Shown here: positions 5,149 to 41,928 of the stretch, one piece after another
How the letters are laid out: each line of letters starts with the position of its first letter
Numbering within the stretch: position 1 is the stretch's first letter
From: Thioalkalivibrio thiocyanoxidans ARh2
Lineage (GTDB): Bacteria > Pseudomonadota > Gammaproteobacteria > Ectothiorhodospirales > Ectothiorhodospiraceae
Direction of reading: 5' to 3'
Assembly: GCF_000385215.1 (NCBI RefSeq)
Contig: NZ_ARQK01000046.1
Span: 1-64,000 of the forward strand
DNA length: 64,000 nucleotides
The notes under the pieces: generated by a model
Databases searched by the model: none
Seen by the model: only the letters and a program-made list of their open reading frames with translations
What the model was told of the DNA's origin: nothing
Made by a program: the position numbers and the translations under genes

Positions 5149-6945
5149 TTAGTGCGCCGCAGGCGGCGCCTCGCCCGACGGGGAGTCGCCCCCACAGTCC
5201 TCACGAATGCGCACCGTGCCCAGTTCGGCCCCGAAGGCCTCGCCCAGGGCCTGTACCACCGGGTCCTCGCGCATCATCGTCTCGGCGCTAGCCTGACGCT
5301 CGGCTGCGTCTGCCGCAAGCCGCGCGGCGGGCGTGGCCTCCGATGGCTGTGTCTGGTCGACAATCTCCAGCCGGACCGAGTGCCCGAGGCGTTCTTCCAG
5401 GGCCTCCTTCAGGCGCACCCGGGTCCGCTCGGTATACAGCGTACCCGGGGCCAGGGCGATCACGACGCCTTCGTCATCCAGCTTCTTCAACTCGCCGTGC
5501 CGCGCGAGTTCGCGCACCGTCCCGGTCGGCAGGCCTTCCGTAAAGCGATACCAGTCAAAGGCCCCGGAATCCGGCTCCCGGACCACGGACGGCGCAGCGG
5601 CCGCTGGCGCCGGGGACGTGGCGGGCTCGGCGTCCCGGGGCGATTGCGCAGCGGTCGGCCCGATAGCCGGGCCGGGTTCCGGCTCGCGCACCTGTTCCTG
5701 TACCCGTTCGCGCGACGATTCTGGCACGGGGGGCGGAGTCGGTCGCGCCCCCGTGGTGTCCGGCCGCGCCGCGGCCGAATCCCCACCCTGGCCGGATCGC
5801 GGCGCGGCCAGGGTCCCGCCCGGGCGCTCGTTGGGGACAGCGCCCTCACCGGGCGCTTCCGGCCGAAAGGCCAGCAGGCGCAGCAGGGTCATTTCCACCC
5901 CCATCTGCGCATCCGGCGCCCAGGGCAGATCGCGGGCACCGTGGATCAGGATCTGGTAGGTCAGCTGCACGCTCTCCGGATCCACCCGTGCGGCGGTCTC
6001 GCGCGCCCAGAGTCGGGCAGCATCCTCGTCCGTATCCACGCCATCACCGCGAACCACCTGCTCCACCGCTACGCGATGCGCCAGGCCTGCGAGCTCGTCC
6101 AGCAGGCGAGCCCAGTCGGGGCCCAATTCCTTGAGTTCCTGCAGCCCCCGCATCAGGCCCGGTCCGTCGCCGGCAAATACCGCATCCAGCAGCCCGGTCA
6201 GGCGGGTTCGCGGCAGCAGGCCCAGCATGTCGCAGGCATCGGCCTCGGTCAGGCGATCGCCACCGTAGGCGATGGCCTGGTCGGTCAGGCTCAGCGCATC
6301 GCGCATGGAGCCCTCGGCCGCCTCGCCCAGACGCAGCAGTGCGCCCGGTTCGGCCTGCAGGCCTTCGGCCTCGAGGATGCGCGTCAGGTGCTCGGCAATC
6401 AGCGCCGGCGGCATCGGCTTGAGGTTGAACTGCAGGCAGCGTGACAGCACGGTGACCGGCAGCTTCTGCGGATCCGTGGTGGCGAGCAGGAATTTGACGT
6501 GATCCGGCGGCTCCTCCAGCGTTTTCAACAATGCGTTGAAACTCTTCTCGGAGAGCATGTGTACCTCGTCAATCAGGTACACCTTGAACCGGCCTGCGGT
6601 CGGCGCATACGAGACGTTGTCCAGCAGCTCGCGGGTATCGTCCACCCGGGTGCGCGACGCGGCATCGACCTCGATGAGATCCAGATGCCGGCCCTCCGCG
6701 ATCTCGACACAGGAGCGGCATTCACCGCAGGGGGTCGGCGTGACGCCTGATTCGCAGTTCAGGCAGCGCGCGAGGATGCGGGCGATCGTGGTCTTGCCCA
6801 CGCCGCGCGTCCCGGCAAACAGGTAGGCATGGTGCAGACGATCCCCGCTCAGGGCATTGGCCAGGGCACGTACCACATGCGGTTGCCCGACCAGGTCCTC
6901 GAAACGACCGGGACGCCATTTGCGGGCCAGAACCTGGTGACTCAT
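5149..6945 (-). CDS. dnaX: DNA polymerase III subunit tau/gamma
   Basis: A 598-residue clamp-loader ATPase. Walker A GTRGVGKT (about residues 45-52) is followed by a zinc-binding cysteine block (CLNC...CGECRSC), Walker B/DEVHM and the SRC sensor region. A Pro/Ala/Glu-rich linker (about 375-450) leads to the C-terminal alpha-binding region. I see no A-run in this gene that would act as the E. coli frameshift site, so a separate gamma product is not predicted by that mechanism. GGGGGAGG precedes the ATG. Confidence 0.97.
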   Translation of the reverse strand: MSHQVLARKWRPGRFEDLVGQPHVVRALANALSGDRLHHAYLFAGTRGVGKTTIARILARCLNCESGVTPTPCGECRSCVEIAEGRHLDLIEVDAASRTRVDDTRELLDNVSYAPTAGRFKVYLIDEVHMLSEKSFNALLKTLEEPPDHVKFLLATTDPQKLPVTVLSRCLQFNLKPMPPALIAEHLTRILEAEGLQAEPGALLRLGEAAEGSMRDALSLTDQAIAYGGDRLTEADACDMLGLLPRTRLTGLLDAVFAGDGPGLMRGLQELKELGPDWARLLDELAGLAHRVAVEQVVRGDGVDTDEDAARLWARETAARVDPESVQLTYQILIHGARDLPWAPDAQMGVEMTLLRLLAFRPEAPGEGAVPNERPGGTLAAPRSGQGGDSAAARPDTTGARPTPPPVPESSRERVQEQVREPEPGPAIGPTAAQSPRDAEPATSPAPAAAAPSVVREPDSGAFDWYRFTEGLPTGTVRELARHGELKKLDDEGVVIALAPGTLYTERTRVRLKEALEERLGHSVRLEIVDQTQPSEATPAARLAADAAERQASAETMMREDPVVQALGEAFGAELGTVRIREDCGGDSPSGEAPPAAH

Positions 6946-12094: not shown

Positions 12095-12134
12095 GTGTCA
12101 CGCAACGAAACACGGGTGTTACCTTGCGTAACAC
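12095..12134. promoter_or_regulatory. Two tandem operator-like palindromes
   Basis: The palindrome GTGTTAC-N5-GTAACAC (12116-12134) is perfect. A degenerate copy, GTGTCAC-N5-GAAACAC (12095-12113), lies two bases away. Both have GTGT-N11-ACAC symmetry and lie between the HTH gene and the divergent DUF294 gene. The spacing differs from Crp and Fnr sites, so they may bind the neighbouring HTH protein. Confidence 0.6.
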
Positions 12135-12186
12135 GCATCAAGAAAGTCGTACATCCAAACGACTGATTCCCAATACTGGCCACTCT

Positions 12187-12202: not shown

Positions 12203-12253
12203 AGGAATGGGTGATTTCGTGAACCCGTTCACCCAGGGAAATGCGCCACCGCC

Positions 12254-38448: not shown

Positions 38449-38724
38449 TCGGATCTCCCGTTTCATTCATTCGTGGATTCGGTCTCCCGGCGCGCCGACT
38501 CGCCAGCGCAGGCCTGGGAAGGGGGAAACAAAGACGCGTAATGATAGGGGATGCGGGGCATTTTTTCAGGCCGCCGCCACGGCACGGCCCCGCCCCGGGT
38601 CCAATGGCGCTTGGCGCCGGACCGCGAATATTGCCTGTTTTTCATGCAGATAAACCGTATCCCCGCGTTCCCGAAAGCTCGACGGGACCGCAACGATGTC
38701 CGGCGCATACAACCCCGTGTCCCA

Positions 38725-38736
38725 TTTCTTTACACC
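38725..38736 (+). promoter_or_regulatory. Candidate activator site (12-mer TTTCTTTACACC, copy 1)
   Basis: An AT-rich 12-mer identical to one at 39850-39861. It lies 199 bases upstream of the sigma-54 GG element of the first PEP-CTERM gene, a normal distance for an enhancer-binding protein site. Confidence 0.5.
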
Positions 38737-38922
38737 CGGCCCCGGCCGGGGAATCCCCGCCGACCGCGGCCCTCGACGCGTGCGGGGCACCACTCGCCCG
38801 AACAGGGGGCAAGCAAGGTGTCGCACATTTTTACGCCACCCCCCAGTCCAGTGCTGTGCGGCAGCGGGAGTAAGGGGTCTATCCATCTGTTTTTACGGAT
38901 GCGTTCCCGAGACCAGCCCGGG

Positions 38923-38938
38923 TGGCATCGTTTCTGCA
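38923..38938 (+). promoter_or_regulatory. Sigma-54 (-24/-12) promoter of PEP-CTERM gene 1
   Basis: TGGCATCGTTTCTGCA has GG (38924-38925) and GC (38936-38937) exactly 10 bases apart and a good TGGCA core. Transcription would start near 38949, about 70 bases before the ATG. PEP-CTERM genes in exosortase-bearing bacteria often carry such promoters. Confidence 0.7.
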
Positions 38939-39020
38939 TAGTCCTGGATGCAAAAGGATCCGGATGGGCCGGATCCGCGCAAGCCACCCAGGGGGCCCCT
39001 ACCCAGGGAAGGTAAATTGA

Positions 39021-39740
39021 ATGAAACCAACACGCTTCACACCCTATTTCGCGAGTGCGGCCCTGTTGCTGGGCCTGGGACTGTCCGGCGCCACACAGGC
39101 TTCCACGATCGACCCGCTGCTGGAGTGCTCCAGCCTGGACGGAGGCGTTGAAGATCGCGTCACCACCAACATTGGCTGTCAGATTCTCTCGCCGCTGGAC
39201 GGGCATGCGAACGATCCCGTGGGGGGCGACCCCTCGAACTGGATCGTCAACACGGCCGGTGGCACGGGTTTTTTCGGCATCAGCAACTGGCAGTTCGACG
39301 GCCGCTGGGAGGATCCGAAGAAGGAAAATGACGAGAATAACGGAAACGATGAACCGCAGCCCCTGGAGTTCGACCCGGCCGATCCGACCCTTAACCTGGT
39401 CACGATGAACGGCGACGCCCAGGGCGGGACCTGGACGCTCGATCCGAGCTTTGTCTACGGCGACCTGTTGTTCCTGTTCAAGGACGGCGGCAGCACCAAT
39501 CTGACCGGGTTCCTGATGACCGGCTACAGCGGCAGCTATCTCTCGCCGTTTATCGAACCGCCGTTTGACTTCCCGGGCGCAAGCCCCAGGGACATCTCCC
39601 ACGTGAGCATCTATTACCGCCCCAACGGGGACATACCGGAACCCCACACCCTGCTCCTGCTGGGACTGGGACTGGGCCTGCTGGGTCTCGCCCTGCAGCG
39701 GAAATCGCGCAGGCGTTCGCAGGGCTCCCTGACAACCTGA
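39021..39740 (+). CDS. PEP-CTERM exported protein 1
   Basis: A 239-residue protein with a signal peptide (ending ATQAS) and a textbook C-terminal sorting signal: IPEPHTLLLLGLGLGLLGLA followed by a basic RKSRRRS tail. EpsH-type exosortase would cleave this signal; no exosortase is in the window. The mature part holds VTTNIGCQILSPLDG and GTGFFGISNWQFDGRW, shared with the paralogue at 40117, plus an acidic Asn/Glu insert the paralogue lacks. Likely a matrix or surface protein. Confidence 0.93.
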   Translation: MKPTRFTPYFASAALLLGLGLSGATQASTIDPLLECSSLDGGVEDRVTTNIGCQILSPLDGHANDPVGGDPSNWIVNTAGGTGFFGISNWQFDGRWEDPKKENDENNGNDEPQPLEFDPADPTLNLVTMNGDAQGGTWTLDPSFVYGDLLFLFKDGGSTNLTGFLMTGYSGSYLSPFIEPPFDFPGASPRDISHVSIYYRPNGDIPEPHTLLLLGLGLGLLGLALQRKSRRRSQGSLTT

Positions 39741-39766
39741 CGACACCCAACCAACACACCCCATCC

Positions 39767-39800
39767 ATGATGGCGCCCATGTGGCGCCATCATTTCGTTT
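39767..39800 (+). terminator. Rho-independent terminator of PEP-CTERM gene 1
   Basis: ATGATGGCGCC (39767-39777) pairs with GGCGCCATCAT (39783-39793), loop CATGT, followed by TTCGTTT. Confidence 0.9.
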
Positions 39801-39849
39801 AGCCCCTCCTGGCGACGGTCAACGGCCGGTCGCATCTGCCTCTGTCGGC

Positions 39850-39861
39850 TTTCTTTACACC
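39850..39861 (+). promoter_or_regulatory. Candidate activator site (12-mer TTTCTTTACACC, copy 2)
   Basis: Identical to the 12-mer at 38725-38736. It lies 98 bases upstream of the sigma-54 GG element of PEP-CTERM gene 2. Confidence 0.5.
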
Positions 39862-39946
39862 TCGACCACGCCCCGTGGTCAGCGATATCCCGCGCAGGGC
39901 GCCAACCTGCTGTTTTGCGAAGCCAATCACTGCGAACGAGCCAATC

Positions 39947-39962
39947 TGGCACAGGACATGCT
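39947..39962 (+). promoter_or_regulatory. Sigma-54 (-24/-12) promoter of PEP-CTERM gene 2
   Basis: TGGCACAGGACATGCT has GG (39948-39949) and GC (39960-39961) 10 bases apart, with the consensus TGGCAC at -24 and TGCT at -12. Start of transcription would be near 39973, leaving a leader of about 145 bases. Confidence 0.65.
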
Positions 39963-40116
39963 GGATATCGCTTTCGATGAGTGATGGCACTTTCGGGCGA
40001 AGTCGGCCACGGCCGCATTCATTAGGGAAACACTGATGCATGCGCATGCCCGCGCTGGTACTCCAGGTTTCCCGCGAAACCACGGAGGGACTTTCGTCCC
40101 ATGGAGGTAAGCCCGA

Positions 40117-40764
40117 ATGTCATCCAAGCCTTTGCCCACGTTCCTGGCCGGGATCCTGCTCATGCTGAGTCTGTCGCTTTCCGGGACCACCCACGCCACA
40201 CTTCTCGATTGCAATGTCCTGCCCGGCAGCGTCGGCGACGCGGTCACCAGCAATCTCGGCTGTCAGATCCTGTCACCACTGGATGGCGCGGCCACCGACG
40301 CCACCACCGGGGACCCCTCGCACTGGCTGGTCAATACGGCGGGGAACACAGGATTCTTCGGGATCAGCGACTGGGGGTTCGATGGCCGCTGGACCTCTCC
40401 CGGGATGAACAGTTCAAGCCTCGCCAGCTTTGACGGCAACCGCCACCGAGGACAGTGGACCCTCGATACCGAGTGGGATTATGGCGACCTGCTGTTCGTC
40501 TTCAGGCATCGCACCGGCACCAACCTCGTCGGGTTTTTGATGACCGGCATGAGTGGCGAATACACCTCTCCTTTCACCAAACCGCCATTCAGTTTCCCGG
40601 GTGCGGCCACGCGCAACATCTCGCATATCAGCGTGTACTATCGGCCGAGCGAGACCCGCACCGTGCCCGAACCACAGACGATGCTGCTCCTGGGTGCCGG
40701 ACTTGGCTTGCTGGCGTTCATGCTGCGCCGGGGCAAGCGGCAGCGGCCCCGTCCTGCACTTTAG
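40117..40764 (+). CDS. PEP-CTERM exported protein 2
   Basis: A 215-residue paralogue of the 39021 protein. It has a signal peptide (ending THAT), the shared VTSNLGCQILSPLDG and NTGFFGISDWGFDGRW blocks, and a C-terminal VPEPQTMLLLGAGLGLLAFM with a RRGKRQRPR tail. The two proteins share most of their length, which points to a local duplication. Target of an unseen exosortase. Confidence 0.93.
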   Translation: MSSKPLPTFLAGILLMLSLSLSGTTHATLLDCNVLPGSVGDAVTSNLGCQILSPLDGAATDATTGDPSHWLVNTAGNTGFFGISDWGFDGRWTSPGMNSSSLASFDGNRHRGQWTLDTEWDYGDLLFVFRHRTGTNLVGFLMTGMSGEYTSPFTKPPFSFPGAATRNISHISVYYRPSETRTVPEPQTMLLLGAGLGLLAFMLRRGKRQRPRPAL

Positions 40765-40800
40765 GGAGACGCCTTACGCCAGGGAGACGCCTTGCGCCTC

Positions 40801-40833
40801 CTCAGGGGCACGCCGAACAGGCGTGCCCCTGAG
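40801..40833 (+). terminator. Hairpin after PEP-CTERM gene 2
   Basis: Perfect 14-bp arms (40801-40814 and 40820-40833) with loop GAACA; no T-run. Just upstream, AGGGAGACGCCTT occurs twice in tandem (40764-40795). Confidence 0.55.
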
Positions 40834-40926
40834 CTGGAACGACGGCCGTCATGCACCCCGTCTCGGGTTTCCCTAGAATCCTCGTCATTGCCGCGAATTC
40901 ATTGCCGGCATAGTACCGGAGGGCGT

Positions 40927-41928
40927 ATGCATCGATTCAGTGTGCTGAGGACCGACCGGCGGTGGCTGCGCCGACCAGGGGCAGTTCTCGCCTTGGCTGC
41001 GCTGCTTCTGGCCACCACGGCGCAAGCCGAATCGCGATTCATCAATATTGGCACCGGCGGGGTGACCGGCGTGTACTACCCGGCGGGCCAGCACCTGTGT
41101 CGCCTGTTCAACACGCGCCGCGACGAGCACGGGATGCGCTGTACGGCGGAGAGCACCGGCGGCTCCGTGTTCAATCTCAACATGATCCGCTCGGGCGACA
41201 TGGACTTCGGCGTTGCGCAGTCTGACCTTCAACACCACGCCTACCGCGGTACCGGGCGCTTCGAGGAATACGGGCCCACCACCCATTTGCGTGCGGTCTT
41301 CAGCCTGCACGCCGAACCGCTTACCCTGGTGGTACGCCCCGATGCGGGCATCGAGGGGCTGGACGACCTGCCCGGCAAGCGCGTCAACATCGGCAACCCC
41401 GGTTCCGGTCAGCGCATCCTGATGGAAGAACTGATGGAAGCACTGGGCTGGGACCATGACAGCTTCCGCCGGGTCGGCGAGCTGCCTTCCCGCGAACAGG
41501 CGCAGGCCCTGTGCGACAACCGCATCGACGCCTTTGTGTTCTCCGTCGGCCACCCCTCGGCCGCGATCCAGGAACCCATTGCAACCTGCGACGCTCGGCT
41601 GGTCTCGATCGAGGGCTCGACGATCGACCAGCTGGTGAAGGAGACGCCCTATTACCTGCGCGCGGTAATTCCGGCCGGTACCTACCCGAACCAGGACGAC
41701 GACATCCACACCTACGGCGTCGGCGCCACGCTGGTCACCTCGTCCCGCACCTCGGACCGCGCCGTCTACGAGATCACCCGTGCGGTGTTCGAGAACTTCG
41801 AGACCTTCCGCGGTCTGCACCCGGCGTTCGGGCCTCTGGAGCGCGAGACGATGGTGGACGAAGGATTGTCGGCCCCGCTGCATCCGGGGGCCCAGCGCTA
41901 CTTCCGTGAAGCGGGGCTGATCGAATGA
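40927..41928 (+). CDS. TAXI-family TRAP transporter solute-binding protein
   Basis: A 333-residue periplasmic binding protein with a signal peptide (ending AQAES) and the TAXI signature FINIGTGGVTGVYYPAGQHL, followed by STGGSVFNLNMIRSGDMDFG. It delivers its ligand to the TRAP permease encoded next. TAXI ligands are poorly defined; glutamate and other carboxylates are known cases. CGGAGGG precedes ATG 40927. Its TGA overlaps the permease ATG. Confidence 0.95.
   Translation: MHRFSVLRTDRRWLRRPGAVLALAALLLATTAQAESRFINIGTGGVTGVYYPAGQHLCRLFNTRRDEHGMRCTAESTGGSVFNLNMIRSGDMDFGVAQSDLQHHAYRGTGRFEEYGPTTHLRAVFSLHAEPLTLVVRPDAGIEGLDDLPGKRVNIGNPGSGQRILMEELMEALGWDHDSFRRVGELPSREQAQALCDNRIDAFVFSVGHPSAAIQEPIATCDARLVSIEGSTIDQLVKETPYYLRAVIPAGTYPNQDDDIHTYGVGATLVTSSRTSDRAVYEITRAVFENFETFRGLHPAFGPLERETMVDEGLSAPLHPGAQRYFREAGLIE

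Follow-up and report, generated by a model that had tools for sequence, protein, structure and literature searches.

Predicted PrsR boxes and sigma-54 promoters of two tandem PEP-CTERM genes in Thioalkalivibrio thiocyanoxidans ARh2, and their spacing across the Gammaproteobacteria

Two neighbouring genes of Thioalkalivibrio thiocyanoxidans ARh2 encode related PEP-CTERM proteins, and similar short words recur in the DNA in front of each; the question raised by this locus is which of these words make up a regulatory element and how such an element would switch the genes on. The pair lies in a 64,000-nucleotide stretch of DNA (positions 1 to 64,000 of contig NZ_ARQK01000046.1, assembly GCF_000385215.1), the whole of which we call the window. 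An earlier note, made from the letters alone, had assigned each gene a sigma-54 promoter of the form GG-N10-GC (TGGCATCGTTTCTGCA at 38923 and TGGCACAGGACATGCT at 39947) and had proposed that a 12-mer shared by both upstream regions, TTTCTTTACACC at 38725 and 39850, 199 and 98 bases from the GG, is a half-site for a PrsR-type activator. All of these coordinates and distances are right, and the description of the genes as duplicated PEP-CTERM genes holds as well: both products exceed the PF07589 cut-off of 20.7 bits (28.8 bits for gene 1, 26.3 for gene 2) and they are 56% identical. What we report amounts to finding again, correctly and independently, a promoter class that was already published, now in a new genome; we correct the unit and the pairing of its boxes and add a helical spacing ladder and a candidate IHF-type element seen when genomes of the class are compared.

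The boxes and promoters of the two genes

The exact 12-mer occurs exactly twice in the genome searched (2,765,337 bases in 61 contigs), both times in the window, and its reversed control does not occur; it is thus not a common word without PEP-CTERM association. The element itself is a longer one, the 17-mer TGTC-N7-TTTACR, whose last ten bases followed by CC give the 12-mer. It has seven matches genome-wide, three of them in the window, against one for the reversed control. This box is an imperfect dyad of 17 bp, published in 2006, and the 12-mer is its right part and not a half-site. The 12-mer was also rejected as the binding unit on comparative grounds, as the gene-2 box of relatives retains TGTC...TTTACA instead.

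Closer inspection of the three boxes (Table 1) changes which of them are equivalent. The boxes beginning at 38819 and 39843 both end exactly 87 nt before the T of TGGCA and are the positional counterparts, whereas the box at 38718 is an extra distal copy. The first of these counterparts, which ends in TTTACG where the other two boxes end in TTTACA, had been missed, and the distal copy had been taken as the equivalent of the gene-2 box. The same layout recurs in four further species of the genus (genomes G001, G005, G025 and G029), in which both genes are again adjacent: gene 1 always has two boxes and gene 2 always one, and the 17-mers are conserved at gaps of 84-87 nt. The distal gene-1 box is kept in all five species, at a box-to-box distance of 101 nt in our genome and in G025, 106 nt in G005 and 110 nt in G001 and G029; this copy is therefore not strictly phased. 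Its exact 12-mer is retained in five of five species, and that of the gene-2 box in just one of five, so part of the agreement of the two genes in this word is coincidental.

Scored against a sigma-54 consensus, the predicted promoter of gene 2 reaches 0.95 and that of gene 1 reaches 0.87; on both strands of the window only two sites score at least 0.94, and the gene-1 site is among 27 that score at least 0.865. Alone, the 12-mer and GG-N10-GC are weak evidence: when the letters of the second intergenic region were shuffled 5000 times, 104 of the results still had a 12-mer in common with the first, and of 2000 shuffles 1815 contained some GG-N10-GC. The arrangement stands above chance because of the sigma-54 scores, the rarity of the 17-mer and its retention in four other species.

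The class to which these promoters belong is set out in the text of Haft 2006 (PMC1569441), where 99 of 167 proteobacterial PEP-CTERM genes are said to be preceded by a 17-nt motif 1 that has TTTACA at its end and in some cases is present more than once, and then, after a spacer with a mean of 62.8 nt (standard deviation 10.6, range 32-92), by a sigma-54 motif 2 with GG at -24 and GC at -12, located 23-221 nt before the start codon; PrsR was proposed to bind motif 1. Judged against that text description, the window shares the 17-nt motif with its TTTACA end, a spacer (counted to the first T of TGGCA) that lies inside the published range for both genes, promoter-to-start distances that likewise lie inside theirs (Table 1), a long upstream region, as in front of single PEP-CTERM genes, and the presence of PrsR, PrsK, PrsT and EpsH/exosortase in the genome. 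The predicted promoters of the window share every tested sequence feature of the Haft class. They differ in that the excerpts of the 2006 text drawn on here describe two motifs at the mean spacing given above, with neither an IHF-type third element nor an 11-bp ladder, and in that the boxes of the window end in TTTACA twice and in TTTACG once. The sigma-54 and PrsR-type control of PEP-CTERM genes put forward in the earlier note therefore agrees with the regulators and gene families present here, but the link is not new (PMC1569441).

One experimental test of a PEP-CTERM promoter was found in the open-licence literature (PMC9850573). It reports for pepA of Aquincola tertiaricarbonis a mapped start site, a TGGCAC/CTGCTT promoter, RpoN1 dependence and a predicted upstream enhancer. 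Both cases have an RpoN-type PEP-CTERM promoter; the Aquincola gene is of the PepA type and experimentally tested, whereas the window genes encode other PEP-CTERM proteins and their promoters are read from sequence.

Table 1. Genes and predicted regulatory features of the PEP-CTERM pair (positions in the window; gaps run from the end of a box to the sigma-54 site)
Feature	Position	Strand	Details
Distal predicted PrsR-type box, gene 1	38718..38734	+	TGTCCCATTTCTTTACA; 188 nt gap to sigma-54 site; includes ten bases of first 12-mer
Proximal predicted PrsR-type box, gene 1	38819..38835	+	TGTCGCACATTTTTACG; 87 nt gap to sigma-54 site
Weak candidate IHF-type site, gene 1	38880..38892	+	TATCCATCTGTTT; relaxed form 8/9, strict form 6/9; TTG position 36 nt before sigma-54 site
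Predicted sigma-54 promoter, gene 1	38923..38938	+	TGGCATCGTTTCTGCA; 82 nt upstream of ATG
Gene 1	39021..39740	+	PEP-CTERM protein, 239 residues; N-terminal signal-like stretch, C-terminal sorting signal
Intrinsic-terminator-like hairpin	39767..39793	+	11 pairs; between gene 1 and gene 2
Predicted PrsR-type box, gene 2	39843..39859	+	TGTCGGCTTTCTTTACA; 87 nt gap; includes ten bases of second 12-mer
Candidate IHF-type site, gene 2	39903..39915	+	CAACCTGCTGTTT; relaxed form 9/9, strict form 7/9; TTG position 37 nt before sigma-54 site
Predicted sigma-54 promoter, gene 2	39947..39962	+	TGGCACAGGACATGCT; 154 nt upstream of ATG
Gene 2	40117..40764	+	PEP-CTERM protein, 215 residues; paralogue of gene 1

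Spacing of box and promoter in the genus and the class

Across 30 genomes of the genus, our own included, a looser composite (TTTACR-N70..100-GGCAY-N6-TGC) has 33 matches in 16 genomes, against 12 for the reversed pattern. When coordinates were compared with those of 44 PEP-CTERM matches, 14 of the 33 proved to lie directly upstream of one, and a fifteenth precedes a PEP-CTERM relative cut by a contig end. PrsR is found in 17 of the 30 genomes, among them all nine that hold the 14 PEP-linked composites. Box and promoter stand within limits in 11 of 20 PEP-CTERM entries examined from the gene side (some among the 14), the N70..100 composite itself missing shorter gaps. In 23 box-promoter pairs the gaps fall at 63-65 nt (7 pairs), 83-87 nt (14) or 96 nt (2), with none between these values where 50-99 nt was allowed. 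Upstream readings of loci L015, L020, L021, L022, L024, L099, L110 and L112 were disregarded as being on the wrong strand, L020 and L022 supplying proteins only; the orientation was right for two G001 genes, a G007 gene and the pepA gene of our genome.

For the class, which we took to be the Gammaproteobacteria, 369 genomes were drawn evenly, again with our own included. A strict composite (TGTC-N7-TTTACA-gap-TGGCAC-N6-TGC) gave 30 matches in 27 genomes at gaps of 40-70 nt and 39 matches in 31 genomes at gaps of 71-101 nt, with no reversed control in either range, so that 69 strict promoters were recovered from 50 genomes and 40 genera. Box positions 5 and 6, left free in the search, are purines in 68 and 67 of the 69, which makes these composites very probably real sites. 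Downstream open reading frames were picked mechanically for all but one of the 69, and 40 of the 68 match PF07589 at E 0.01 or better; some of the picked frames look wrong, and this count is therefore probably a floor. Others encode DUF5658 (3/68) or DUF3135 (2/68; L138 and L139 are among these five by sequence similarity), a type I secretion ATPase and a trehalohydrolase-like protein, suggesting that the PrsR regulon may reach beyond PEP-CTERM genes.

The 69 gaps form five groups, with means of 52.2 (n = 6), 63.1 (24), 74.1 (25), 84.6 (12) and 96.5 nt (2), and the slope of this ladder is 11.01 nt per group. The Rayleigh R peaks at 0.788 at a period of 11.1, a value that none of 2000 controls from a smoothed distribution reaches (maximum 0.37) when the period is scanned from 9 to 13 for the controls and the compared value alike. 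The periodicity is equally visible with one gap per genus: over 500 such draws R averages 0.79 and never falls below 0.73, whereas 5000 uniform draws go no higher than 0.57. The 87-nt gaps of the window belong to the fourth group and have the helically phased spacing. At so short a distance (52-98 nt), the box would reach RpoN-polymerase only from a given face of the helix. This spacing principle has a precedent in the sigma-54 enhancers of the Vibrio qrr genes, whose looping lengths, in the range from about 80 to 120 bp, are described as falling into clusters about 11 bp apart (PMC4740811); the qrr enhancers serve regulatory RNA genes and LuxO, whereas those considered here serve PEP-CTERM genes and, as predicted, PrsR.

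A candidate IHF-type element and the rival explanations

We consider it probable, on the sequence comparisons made here, that phosphorylated PrsR turns on surface proteins associated with exopolysaccharide from an enhancer that is helically phased and bent by IHF. PrsK would phosphorylate PrsR, an NtrC-like activator, and PrsR dimers would occupy the 17-bp boxes. With the spacer bent by IHF at a YAA-N4-YTG-WTW site, PrsR on the correct helix face would touch the RpoN-polymerase poised at TGGCA-N7-TGC and so trigger promoter opening. Both genes would yield signal-peptide proteins whose PEP-CTERM tail is destined for exosortase A, produced alongside XrtA-type exopolysaccharide. Genes 1 and 2 are best explained, within the same account, as separately transcribed, tandemly duplicated PrsK-PrsR targets. 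We infer the binding of PrsR and IHF at these sites and the dependence on RpoN in this organism.

The IHF step is suggested by the contents of the class gaps, in which a recurring YAA-N4-YTG-WTT resembles the other strand of WATCAA-N4-TTR, which we take to be the IHF consensus. A strict form of this presumed consensus, YAA-N4-TTGATW, was tested first. It is matched at eight or more of nine letters in 24 of the 69 gaps, against a mean of 6.4 and a maximum of 12 in 100 dinucleotide shuffles, and in the other (forward) orientation in 18 of the 69 (shuffle mean 5.7, maximum 12), whereas a complement-only decoy (9; mean 6.0, maximum 11) and a reversed-only decoy (10; mean 5.2, maximum 11) stay within their own shuffles. 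The motif is also positioned: in 17 of the 24 strict sites the TTG lies 24-27 nt before TGGCAC, where shuffles give a mean of 0.4 and a maximum of 2 for this register, which was chosen after seeing the data. Strict sites of at least 8/9 occur in this register in 13 of the 40 genera and elsewhere in 6, and the forward form clusters with its CAA 14-16 nt before TGGCAC in 11 of 20 matches. A relaxed form, YAAN4YTGWTW, fitted to the data, is matched at 8/9 or better in 39 of the 69 gaps (shuffle mean 14, maximum 24), with 30 of the 69 in register (mean 0.9, maximum 4) and five matches at 35-38 nt, one turn further out. All four other species have a 9/9 relaxed match in front of gene 2, at 36-37 nt, and one of 7-8/9 in front of gene 1, at 35-37 nt; when the gene-2 gap of the window is shuffled 5000 times, 12 shuffles equal its relaxed site anywhere in the gap and 1 does so at 34-38 nt. 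IHF-assisted NtrC/NifA-type enhancers are likewise described as having an IHF-type site that separates the activator's site from the sigma-54 promoter (PMC7962754, PMC4740811); the action of IHF is reported there and predicted here. Neither an IHF element nor an 11-bp ladder is described for PEP-CTERM promoters in the open-licence literature searched, and, as far as these searches show, the two are the new part of the finding and refine a known kind of enhancer.

Several observations weigh against this account. Within the genus, 18 of the 33 composites have no PEP-CTERM match behind them, the 12 reversed-pattern matches imply that many of the composites are chance, and 9 of the 20 PEP-CTERM entries, three of them near contig ends, have no composite within limits. 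At 7/9 strict letters the genera divide evenly, 21/40 having a site in register and 21/40 elsewhere in the gap, and 17 of the 69 gaps lack a relaxed match of as little as 7/9 in a phased register. The sites of the window, which lie one turn further out than the 24-27 nt register, match the strict consensus at just 7/9 (gene 2) and 6/9 (gene 1) and owe their high scores to the relaxed form fitted to the data; the relaxed gene-1 site is equalled in 130 of 5000 own-gap shuffles anywhere and in 7 of 5000 at 34-38 nt. No good IHF-type site is seen in the pepA promoter of the same genome (best 6 and 7 of 9). With the window sites weak on the strict form, the case for IHF here comes from conservation and from the pattern across the class. 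Lastly, the PEP-motif exosortase substrate GSU1943 of Geobacter sulfurreducens is listed as about 3-fold up in ihfA-1 and ihfB-2 mutants (PMC7962754), the opposite of what a needed helper would give, so that in Geobacter at least IHF may hold such a gene back instead of helping it; this comparison is with another organism, in which the presence of a box was not checked.

The missing and weak sites and the Geobacter result would all suit a two-part enhancer without IHF, in which PrsR and sigma-54 are rightly named and the YTGTTT/A-T tract is merely bendable or UP-like DNA. The promoter-anchored profile adds to its appeal by showing an A/T-rich stretch besides the YAA-N4-TTG core, as does the description of a second bacterial enhancer class with a conserved AT-rich sequence in place of IHF (PMC4740811). 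Bendable DNA of this kind fits poorly with the excess of strict matches over dinucleotide shuffles in both orientations and with decoys that stay within their own shuffles, and we think a two-part enhancer rather unlikely.

The PrsK-PrsR account with IHF bending also names a particular activator, and here the regulators encoded in the genome bear on the matter. The genome lacks neither rpoN nor a PrsR homologue: one protein exceeds the curated PrsR cut-off (696.3 bits against 502.6; next best 384.8), and there is one RpoN (491.8 bits; cut-off 277.35), together with exosortase A (XrtA; 360.7 bits, cut-off 208), PrsK (717.6, cut-off 300), EpsB_2 (508.3, cut-off 393.35) and PrsT (542.7, cut-off 312.2, over profile positions 86-898, its start probably clipped by the edge of the stretch examined). 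Ten further sigma-54-type activators score 269-385 bits to the PrsR model, and one of these NtrC-family regulators might use the boxes in place of PrsR. That the PrsR cut-off is reached by one protein only, that all nine genus genomes with PEP-linked boxes have PrsR, and that in Haft 2006 the motif and PrsR share one set of 13 species (PMC1569441) make such a substitution improbable. Chance resemblance of GC-rich intergenic DNA to sigma-54 sites and TTTACA, which the shuffle counts for GG-N10-GC and the 12-mer would permit, is already contradicted by the comparative data (17-mers at 84-87 nt gaps in five species, 69 class matches against no controls, purines at the free box positions) and is a most implausible source of the pattern.

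The gene pair, other box sites and the meaning for the family

Both products have an N-terminal signal-like stretch, judged by eye, and, per PF07589, the exosortase-substrate features of a C-terminal PEP motif, a transmembrane stretch and a basic tail; gene 1 also reaches 18.7 bits to TIGR02595 (cut-off 16). No Pfam domain besides PEP-CTERM is found in either product at E 0.1. An AlphaFold model from two sequences had a mean pLDDT of 36.9 and was not used to read function from fold. The pair is flanked by a minus-strand gene beginning at 38466 and by a plus-strand gene from about 40792-40930 onward. The hairpin between the genes (Table 1), one of five terminator-like matches in the region against 2.0 in shuffles, suggests that gene 2 probably needs its own promoter; a simple sigma-70 scan of the region gave one site, on the opposite strand, against 0.6 expected.

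In a midpoint-rooted tree the five gene-2 copies form one group (support 100/99) and the five gene-1 copies have no supported group of their own. The simplest reading of this tree is a duplication that predates the five species. A relative of gene 2 is present in 9 of the 58 genomes searched, our own included, and a search of genome contigs for related loci gave one weak match of about 52 residues. Genome G002 carries two near-identical gene copies with the same box-promoter region on contigs C10 and C15, the second being split over both ends of a 13.7-kb contig, as expected of a circular element.

Both leaders (window 40080-40107 and about 38950-39020) contain sequence-conserved hairpins adjoining the ribosome-binding site; that of gene 2 is CCACGGAGGGACTTTCGTCCCATGGAGG, from which relatives differ by one to two letters. 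A structured leader was rejected as a regulator, the stability of the folds being not clearly above that of shuffles (z -1.44, with 20/200 as good, and z 0.21, with 112/200).

Exosortase A, PrsK, PrsT, EpsB_2 and other XrtA-linked genes share a single 32-kb stretch of contig C59, which also holds the third PEP-CTERM gene of the genome, of the PepA family (180.4 bits; cut-off 80). Upstream of this pepA lie a box, CGTCCGATTTTTTTACA, and, after a 64-nt gap, a sigma-54 site, TGGCACGCAGCCTGCT. On the same contig a box at C59:42131 and, after a 74-nt gap, TGGTACACAGTTTGCT (score 0.95; 12132-12148 and 12223-12238 of locus L032) precede an unnamed gene, the next gene being exosortase-associated acyltransferase-like (105 bits; cut-off 112) and on the XrtA stretch. 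A strict 17-mer at C59:51771-51787 (L033 1871-1887) lies antisense within prsK with no sigma-54 site behind it and is probably chance. A fourth PEP-CTERM match in the genome, on contig C41, was rejected: its 13.7 bits are under the cut-off of 16, the encoded protein looks by eye like a polytopic membrane enzyme, and the 1500 bases upstream of the match contain no [TC]GTC-N7-TTTACR box. Contig C57 holds an inverted pair of boxes (5330-5346, minus; 5393-5409, plus), which, with a sigma-54-like site, GGGTATAGATATTGCT (83-nt gap, score 0.85; L115 2394-2410 and 2494-2509), precedes an uncharacterised gene that has no NCBIfam match; an HprK-related kinase A (414.6 bits) is encoded nearby. From its boxes, this gene is a possible extra PrsR target.

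PEP-CTERM/exosortase systems are tied to the flocs and exopolysaccharide matrices of environmental bacteria. Besides correcting which two boxes of the window are equivalent, the comparison sharpens a loose published motif pair into a 17-mer, a whole-turn gap and a positioned IHF-type site, and the sharper rule predicts insertions that would kill a promoter as well as further genes of the regulon. With some reserve, we lean towards the view that the PEP-CTERM genes of the class are under one phase-locked switch of PrsR box, IHF bend and sigma-54 promoter, working at whole-turn separations only (gaps of about 52, 63, 74, 85 or 96 nt, with the IHF TTG about 14, 25 or 36 nt before the promoter), and that the whole PrsR regulon, non-PEP-CTERM genes included, may be readable from sequence.

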